A stretch of DNA of 64,000 nucleotides from Candidatus Zixiibacteriota bacterium (GTDB lineage: Bacteria; Zixibacteria; MSB-5A5; GN15; FEB-12). The position numbers were made by a program, and so were the translations under genes. The stretch is from contig JAOUBJ010000001.1 of NCBI GenBank assembly GCA_029860345.1, forward strand, positions 321,089 through 385,088, read 5' to 3'. The notes below the pieces were generated by a model. It did no database searches and was not told the DNA's origin. It worked only from the letters and a program-made list of their open reading frames with translations. This document shows, one piece after another, positions 53,266 through 63,181 of this stretch. Every line of letters starts with the position of its first letter. The first letter of the stretch is position 1.

Positions 53266-54438
53266 ATGAAACATCTGGTAATCATCATATCGGCTGTAGT
53301 ATTGCTACTGCCAACGATGGCGAAGGCCGCCGAGCAGATCAGTTTCGACCAAGCCGCCAAGCTGTCATCCCAGGGCGGGAAGCCGCTGCTTTTGGAGTTC
53401 TTTCGCGACGACTGAGAGTATTGCGAACTGGCCGCTCGTGAAGTGGCCTCGGAGCAACGAATCAGCGACGCGCTCACCCAGGTGGTGCACCTGCCGCTGA
53501 ATATCAAAAAAGGTGAAGGGATTCAACTGGGCGAACGGTACAGCGTGGGACCGTACTTTCCGGTGTTCATACTCACCAACAGCGAGGGCGCGGTCATCAA
53601 CCGCTGGACCGGATACACAGGCGCCGAACGTTTTCTCAGATCGTTTTACAAGGCCATGTCGAACCTTACCCCGATTGCTGAACGCATTGCCGCCTTTGAC
53701 AAGATGCCCAGTCATGCCGAGGCATTGTTCCTTGCCTCCTACCATGCCGACATATCGGAATTCGTAAAAGCAGCCAAATACTATCAGCGTGCCCAGACGC
53801 TCAATGGTTCATCGACTGATTACTCATACCAGGTCTTCGAGAACTACGCCAACGCGGCATGGAACGATCAGATTCCGTTCGACGACGTCCTGCCCGCCGC
53901 CGACGCTGTACTTGAAGCGCCGCGCAAGAATTTACAGAACATCGCAAGTGTGGCCCAGTTGATCTGCAAGCTGGCGCGGCGAAGAGATGCAACCGACCGG
54001 ATTGCGAAATACTTGCAAGCCGGAATCGCGGCCTCCGGTGCGCGTAAAGATGACAAAGGTCGCAAGCTGCAGGCCGAGCTTAAAGCCGATCAAGCGCTGT
54101 ATGTCCATGGGGACACGTTGGGTGCCATCGAGCAAAAGAAGTCCGGTTTTGGTGAGAACTGGGACACGAACCTGAACAACTACCTGCCCTTTGCAACTTA
54201 CTGTTTTGAACGGCGGATCAATCTGGAGGAAGCGCAGCGTTTTGTCGAGACGGCGGCGCAGCGCGCCTCGGACGGATCGTTCAAGGCCAAGCATCTGAGT
54301 TTGCTGGCCAACATTTGCGAAGCGCGCGGCAACTTCGCCGATGCGCTCCGGCATGCCGAGGCTGCCGCTGTGCAAGACCCGGATAACGAGGCGTATGCCA
54401 AACAGCTTTTGCGCATGCGCGAGGCTGCGGGGCGGTGA
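53266..54438 (+). CDS. Predicted selenoprotein: secreted thioredoxin-like protein with UxxC and a helical C-terminus
   Basis: Translated from ATG 53266 with the TGA at 53413-53415 read as selenocysteine, the product has 390 residues. A signal peptide (VIIISAVVLLLPTMAKAA) leads into a thioredoxin-like domain: KPLLLEFFRDD, then Sec50-EYC, then a cis-Pro segment GPYFPVFIL. The TGA falls exactly where thioredoxins have the first CxxC cysteine. The frame stays open on both sides for 49 and 340 codons with continuous homology-like sequence. A SECIS-like hairpin lies 14 nt after the TGA, and a tRNA-Sec gene is at 62916. The C-terminal 250 residues are TPR-like helices. A nonsense mutation of TGC is the alternative. 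Confidence 0.85.
53430..53448 (+). promoter_or_regulatory. Candidate bacterial SECIS hairpin
   Basis: GGCCGC (53430-53435) and GTGGCC (53443-53448) pair with one G-U. The 7-nt loop TCGTGAA contains a GU. The stem starts 14 nt after the UGA, within the usual bacterial SECIS distance for SelB recognition, inside the coding region. Confidence 0.65.
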
Positions 54439-56280: not shown

Positions 56281-56515
56281 CACGGTCAAGCCGTGTGTGT
56301 CACGGTCAAGCCGTGGGTATCACGGTTAAGCCGTGTGTGTCACGGTCAAGCCGTGGGTATCACGGTTAAGCCGTGGGTGTCACGGTCAAGCCGTGGGTGT
56401 CACGGTCAAGCCGTGGGTGTCACGGTCAAGCCGTGGGTGTCACGGTCAAGCCGTGGGTGTCACGGTCAAGCCGTGGGTGTCACGGTCAAGCCGTGGGTAT
56501 CACGGTCAAGCCGTG
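56281..56515. repeat. Tandem array of twelve 20-bp palindromic units
   Basis: The unit CACGGTCAAGCCGTGGGTGT repeats about 12 times with sparse variants (GTTAAG for GTCAAG, GTGTGTGT or GGGTAT spacers). It is the same repeat as at 3301-3465 and, inverted, at 5655-5705. A 'cttcgactgcgctcaggacgacacgg' copy joins its left end (about 56260-56285). It fills most of the 413-bp gap 56176-56588, which also has the palindrome AGGTCCGTTAAGGACCT near 56210. Frames through it are repeat artefacts. Confidence 0.9.
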
Positions 56516-62878: not shown

Positions 62879-62915
62879 GAAAAAGTGTACGTTCTTGGAA
62901 CCGCATGTACAAAAG

Positions 62916-63009
62916 CGGAAGGGGTGGGAATCGAACCCACCGGGGACAGCATAACTGCCCCCCACACGGCTTTGAAGGCCGGGACCGCCACCAGACGGCA
63001 TCCGCTTCC
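62916..63009 (-). tRNA. selC: tRNA-Sec (anticodon UCA)
   Basis: On the minus strand the 94-nt gene has the anticodon loop CTTCAAA (UCA reads UGA), identical to the E. coli selC loop. It has a 6-bp D-stem (GCCGTC/GGCGGT) with a 4-nt loop, a long variable arm (GGGG/CCCC with inner GCAG/GCTG), T-loop TTCGATT and discriminator G. All are hallmarks of selenocysteine tRNA. The acceptor arm is GGAAGCGG against CCCCTTCC with one C-C mismatch. The acceptor-plus-T helix appears to be 12 rather than 13 pairs. CCA is not encoded (CTT follows). SelA, SelB and SelD are not in the window. Confidence 0.93.
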
Positions 63010-63181
63010 GAAAACAATATAGGAAATCGGACAAGCGACGGCAAACTCAGAATTCACAGCTGTCAGGCGAGCCGACAAGTCGGTTTCTCGCGCTACGCGC
63101 GCCGTCACCCTATCTTTGGCTCGGCACAATAACCGCAAGTGCGTGTTTCAGTGATTGGCAGATTTAACCGACAAACAGGTT

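Follow-up and report, generated by a model that had tools for sequence, protein, structure and literature searches.

The window analysed here, a 64,000-nt stretch of a contig from Candidatus Zixiibacteriota bacterium, contains a gene that very likely encodes an exported selenoprotein with a thioredoxin fold and a TPR-like tail. The features of the locus are as follows.

53266 to 54438, + strand: complete gene of the putative exported thioredoxin-TPR selenoprotein (translation with TGA read as U; 24-member alignment, 36-67% identity to homologues)
53266 to 53331, + strand: N-terminal export signal MKHLVIIISAVVLLLPTMAKAA (sequence; hydrophobic N-terminus of low pLDDT, hydrophobic in nearly all homologues with a known start)
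53332 to 53664, + strand: thioredoxin-fold domain, residues 23-133, with U50xxC53 and cis-Pro99 (Pfam and AlphaFold)
53413 to 53415, + strand: inferred selenocysteine codon TGA, first position of UxxC (TGA or Cys codons in homologues)
53430 to 53448, + strand: putative SECIS hairpin GGCCGCU-CGUGA-AGUGGCC, apical loop 21 nt past the TGA (conservation, covariation, homogeneity of synonymous codons)
53665 to 54435, + strand: TPR-like helical repeat region, residues 134-390 (Pfam TPR in most members; Foldseek)
62915 to 63010, - strand: tRNA-Sec gene, anticodon UCA (ARAGORN; Rfam RF01852, 69.4 bits against a gathering threshold of 47)

When TGA is read as selenocysteine (U), 53266-54438 is a single open frame of 390 residues. 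It starts at ATG 53266, carries an in-frame TGA at residue 50, continues for 340 sense codons and ends at a natural stop, TGA 54436-54438. Residue 50 lies in the context KPLLLEFFRDDUEYC, where it takes the first Cys position of the thioredoxin CxxC motif, and the N-terminus upstream of it is hydrophobic and signal-like. P99 occupies the cis-Pro position and is invariant in 24 aligned orthologues. A standard ORF finder takes GTG 53443 as the start and reports an ORF of 331 aa, which drops the signal, the first strand and the active site of the selenoprotein. By scanning the window for frames open for at least 40 codons before and at least 60 codons after a TGA, it was found that TGA 53413 is the sole thioredoxin-like U..C site. 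These observations bear out what the first-pass annotation had read at the locus: a TGA at 53413 replacing the first cysteine of CxxC (DD-Sec-EYC), a signal peptide before it (here, the hydrophobic N-terminus), a cis-Pro segment and 340 open codons after it, a hairpin with GU in its loop 14 nt on, and a gene caller's start at 53443 that would lose the active site. As a separate observation, the window also contains a tandem array at 56281-56515, with about 12 copies of the 20-bp unit CACGGTCAAGCCGTGGGTGT (94% matches), and this unit includes the inverted repeat CACGG...CCGTG.

A search of 61 genomes, including that of the window, yielded 24 full-length homologues, 20 of which have one in-frame TGA, at the same codon. 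Widening the search to the whole phylum Candidatus Zixibacteria (132 genomes) brought the total to 50 distinct genes, of which a few are truncated at contig ends. The codon aligned with residue 50 is TGA in 38 and Cys (TGC or TGT) in 12; TAA, TAG or any other residue was found at this codon in none of the 50. In every close pair, synonymous changes outnumber non-synonymous ones on either side of the TGA, so that the two parts are one protein under selection. About eight Sec/Cys changes are placed on the family tree, five of which are forced by well-supported branches, and exchanges of this kind fit the expectation for a catalytic position. Named records with homologues belong to Candidatus Zixiibacteriota or to unplaced bacteria, and one is labelled Calditrichota. 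A scan of a genome collection did not detect the family outside Zixibacteria; this is suggestive only, as the scan used short peptide patterns, one of which is unable to match a TGA. A well-supported subclade (L095, L097, L099, L100, L101, and L103) has the motif DF[FY]..WU..CK and a stem that is equally far from the TGA but differs in its outer sequence; both forms occur in some genomes.

The hairpin starts 14 nt past the TGA and has a GU in its loop. Published rules for bacterial SECIS elements call for a loop of 3-9 nt, a stem of 4-16 bp, a G in the first two loop positions, a UGA-to-loop distance of 16-37 nt, and an MFE of no more than -7.5 kcal/mol (PMC13188914). The window hairpin meets them, with 7 bp, the 5-nt loop CGUGA, a spacing of 21 nt, and -10.5 kcal/mol. 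Its folding energy alone is unremarkable (z -1.1; 34 of 200 shuffles are as stable), and as isolated hairpins only 12 of the 38 Sec genes, the window's among them, reach the -7.5 kcal/mol bar. It is only through comparison across the family, not in the single sequence, that the hairpin exceeds chance. If a hairpin is counted only where a 5-nt loop on a stem of 4 bp or more lies at precisely the position seen in the window gene, it is present in all 38 TGA genes versus 1 of the 12 Cys genes, and 4.98 of 38 would be expected by chance (same amino acids recoded synonymously with the codon usage of the family). Codons 56-60 (GCC GCT CGT GAA GYG) are among the most uniform of the gene in synonymous usage. 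Across the family, the innermost stem pair occurs as U-A, A-U, C-G, and U-G. The outer pairs alternate between C-G and U-A or between G-C and U-A, and double compensatory changes were counted in 16 cells, a covariation score that none of 500 shuffles equalled. A test on independent pairs of Sec and Cys genes gave three results in the same direction, none in the opposite direction, and one without difference, and the well-supported pairs are too few for significance. Among the Cys genes, L098 retains the hairpin and L086 only its 5' half. These remnants fit switches from Sec to Cys, although the direction is inferred. Position, covariation, and loss in the Cys forms thus support the reading as a SECIS element.

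A rival explanation takes the TGA for a genuine stop or a sequencing error, the 331-aa ORF from GTG 53443 for the functional gene, and the upstream part for a pseudogene fragment. In its favor, precisely this ORF is what the ORF finder yields, and the hairpin of the single sequence is statistically ordinary. Against it, 38 homologues, many of them only 36-46% identical, keep the TGA, and the others have Cys, never TAA, TAG or another residue. Moreover, purifying selection acts on the segment upstream of the TGA, which supplies the first strand of the thioredoxin fold, and downstream of the TGA lies a hairpin conserved at synonymous positions. The recurrence of the TGA in many separately assembled genomes rules out a sequencing error. 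This rival can hardly be maintained.

The genome of the window (4.76 Mb, 99% complete) encodes selA, with selB adjoining it, and the tRNA-Sec gene sits inside the window. Its selD (L040, G000:C24:6940-7866) is itself Sec-containing, with an in-frame TGA at the active site in an SCAGU context. In the phylum, selA is above the cut-off in 116 of 132 genomes and selB in 113 of 132. Because these genes are near-universal, and selA is also present in genomes with Cys forms, co-occurrence does not separate the Sec forms from the Cys forms. A full selA match is missing in 5 of 35 genomes with a Sec form, which are 79-94% complete or fragmentary. A second rival is that an alternative code or a suppressor places a different amino acid, such as Trp or Cys, at the TGA. 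The frame would indeed be open under any reassignment of TGA. However, TGA terminates this same gene and others in the family, the genome has the full Sec machinery, and the hairpin is specific to the TGA forms, which leaves almost no room for this rival. The preferred reading thus remains selenocysteine insertion. The first-pass annotation had named three findings that would refute it: homologues with neither Cys nor Sec at the site, a genome without selA, selB or selD, and reads with TGC in place of TGA. The homologues have TGA or Cys only, all three genes are present together with the tRNA-Sec, and the TGA recurs in many separate assemblies, so that none of these refutations applies.

The thioredoxin domain scores above the Pfam Thioredoxin_2 cut-off. 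Its AlphaFold model (pLDDT 91.7) has thioredoxins, 2kuc, and the C-terminal domain of DsbD as Foldseek matches. In the model, U50 is situated just before the helix 51-62, and C53 lies in the first turn of this helix. With its redox pair placed where the first active-site helix begins, and with the cis-Pro, the protein satisfies the criteria for a thioredoxin-fold UxxC redox protein. The full-length model (pLDDT 91.3) shows helices as helix pairs over residues 137-389; these tandem pairs are predicted to form a superhelix, as expected for a TPR or alpha-solenoid. The best Foldseek matches of the tail are TPR superhelices (E 8e-7, with a moderate TM of 0.3-0.5). Pfam TPR models match most of the homologues; of the repeats in the window protein, just the last one nears the cut-offs. 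Pfam and Foldseek thus support the TPR-like tail that had been proposed from sequence alone. Several residues in the repeat part are invariant, indicating that this part is constrained too. The 390-aa protein does not qualify as a DsbD, since it has neither the transmembrane nor the N-terminal domain of DsbD; the genome encodes DsbD as a separate, full protein that comprises the N-terminal, the membrane, and the C-terminal thioredoxin parts. An all-against-all comparison of flanking ORFs at 41 loci revealed no widely conserved neighbor beyond the genus, and therefore no partner or client can be named.

The weaker matches of the search are shorter (~300 aa) exported thioredoxin-TPR proteins, which form a second family of UxxC selenoproteins. 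Among those read, 20 distinct genes have an in-frame TGA in a UxxC motif, and in most of these the conserved hairpin differs from that of the first family and is built around CGGUCG or CGUGAC. Thioredoxin and TPR domains are recognized by Pfam in the second family too. Members (L146, L125-L142, L144, and L031) occur in the genome of the window and in about 20 relatives. The copy in the genome of the window (L146, G000:C6:120595-121431) is 49% identical to the query used and has its TGA in EWUPGC, followed by GACACGGTCGTGTT. These findings suggest that exported thioredoxin-TPR selenoproteins form at least two lines in the phylum. Two further observations concern individual genes. In L146, a lipobox-like AVAC is present and the TGA is followed by the hairpin GACACGGUCGUGUU. 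L027 (G049) has Cys (TGT) and carries the 7-bp hairpin UCGAUAC-CGUGAC-GUAUCGA exactly as in its Sec-containing relative L031 (G046) of the same genus, an apparent SECIS fossil after a Sec/Cys switch.

Taken together, the gene very likely encodes an exported thioredoxin-TPR selenoprotein, which is most likely a thiol-disulfide reductase of the cell envelope; recoding and function are both inferred, and there are no protein or activity data. In the proposed mechanism, SelB with Sec-tRNA-Sec would bind the hairpin after the UGA and insert Sec at residue 50; the machinery and the element are identified by sequence, and the insertion is inferred. The precursor would be exported via its signal peptide, and Sec50 and Cys53 would form the redox center of the thioredoxin fold in the envelope. 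The selenolate may attack a substrate disulfide (or a sulfenic acid), with Cys53 as the resolving residue, and the resulting selenenylsulfide would be re-reduced, most likely by the DsbD of the genome. The TPR-like solenoid may act as a docking platform and so keep a client or other partner close to the active site. The role of the TPR part and the link to DsbD rest on inference, and no conserved neighbor beyond the genus backs a partner.

It remains possible that the protein, while a selenoprotein, acts mainly in oxidative folding or in the chemistry of peroxides, selenium or metals and not in disulfide reduction. A UxxC with Sec suits more than one redox role, and the pathway is not pinned down by any partner gene. 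On the other hand, the closest proteins in fold and sequence are thioredoxin, 2kuc, and the C-terminal domain of DsbD rather than peroxiredoxins or DsbA, and the DsbD of the genome could supply electrons. Disulfide reduction is preferred as the main role. A bolder reading, for which the case is as strong as the case against, is that Zixibacteria run a dedicated selenium-based redox system in the envelope with several families of exported thioredoxin-TPR selenoproteins. Jointly with this, and no more securely, the repeat tails may steer selenocysteine chemistry to particular envelope clients, in an architecture undescribed among bacterial selenoproteins.

Because gene calling removes the active site and the signal peptide, the family is invisible in annotation. 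The present analysis adds a selenoprotein family, and an architecture outside current catalogues, in a phylum for which the literature searched contained nothing relevant on selenocysteine. With 38 Sec forms and 12 Cys forms, and a SECIS in decay in some, the family offers a natural series in which to study the benefit of selenium for envelope redox chemistry. The near-universal selA and selB suggest that Zixibacteria are a selenium-committed lineage, whose full selenoproteome would be worthwhile to determine.

None of the NCBIfam models of June 2026 recognizes the window protein (the best is DsbD, with 18 bits against a cut-off of 330), and no thioredoxin-TPR selenoprotein was found in the selenoprotein catalogues and literature searched. 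The closest sequence match is 2kuc, a putative disulphide isomerase from Bacteroides (E 9e-9; fold TM 0.85), and the C-terminal domain of DsbD resembles the thioredoxin domain in fold (TM ~0.75). However, both have Cys instead of Sec and lack the repeat tail, and DsbD is membrane-anchored. Two selenoprotein models share part of the design. The Trx7/PDZ domain (seleno)protein (NF041199) likewise fuses a thioredoxin domain to another domain, but it has CxxU rather than UxxC and PDZ rather than TPR, and the window protein gives no match to it. The TsoB rhodanese/DsbD fusion-like selenoprotein (NF045694) likewise has a DsbD-like thioredoxin part; the second thioredoxin-TPR family matches this model through its thioredoxin part, far below the cut-off, and the window protein does not match. 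Thioredoxin-like UxxC selenoproteins are already well known and common, one of them on the same PF13098 domain (PMC13188914). This 'Thiol:disulfide interchange protein' (PMC13188914 Table 1, PMC9312934) has the same Thioredoxin_2 domain and the same UxxC with Sec first, but it is catalogued by its thioredoxin domain only, with no mention of a TPR solenoid; the sequences were not compared directly. The claim of a new selenoprotein in the first-pass annotation is thus supported for the family and its architecture, but not beyond these: lacking any NCBIfam model or catalogued thioredoxin-TPR counterpart, the window protein is well supported as a new family, with a new architecture, of the known thioredoxin-like UxxC class.
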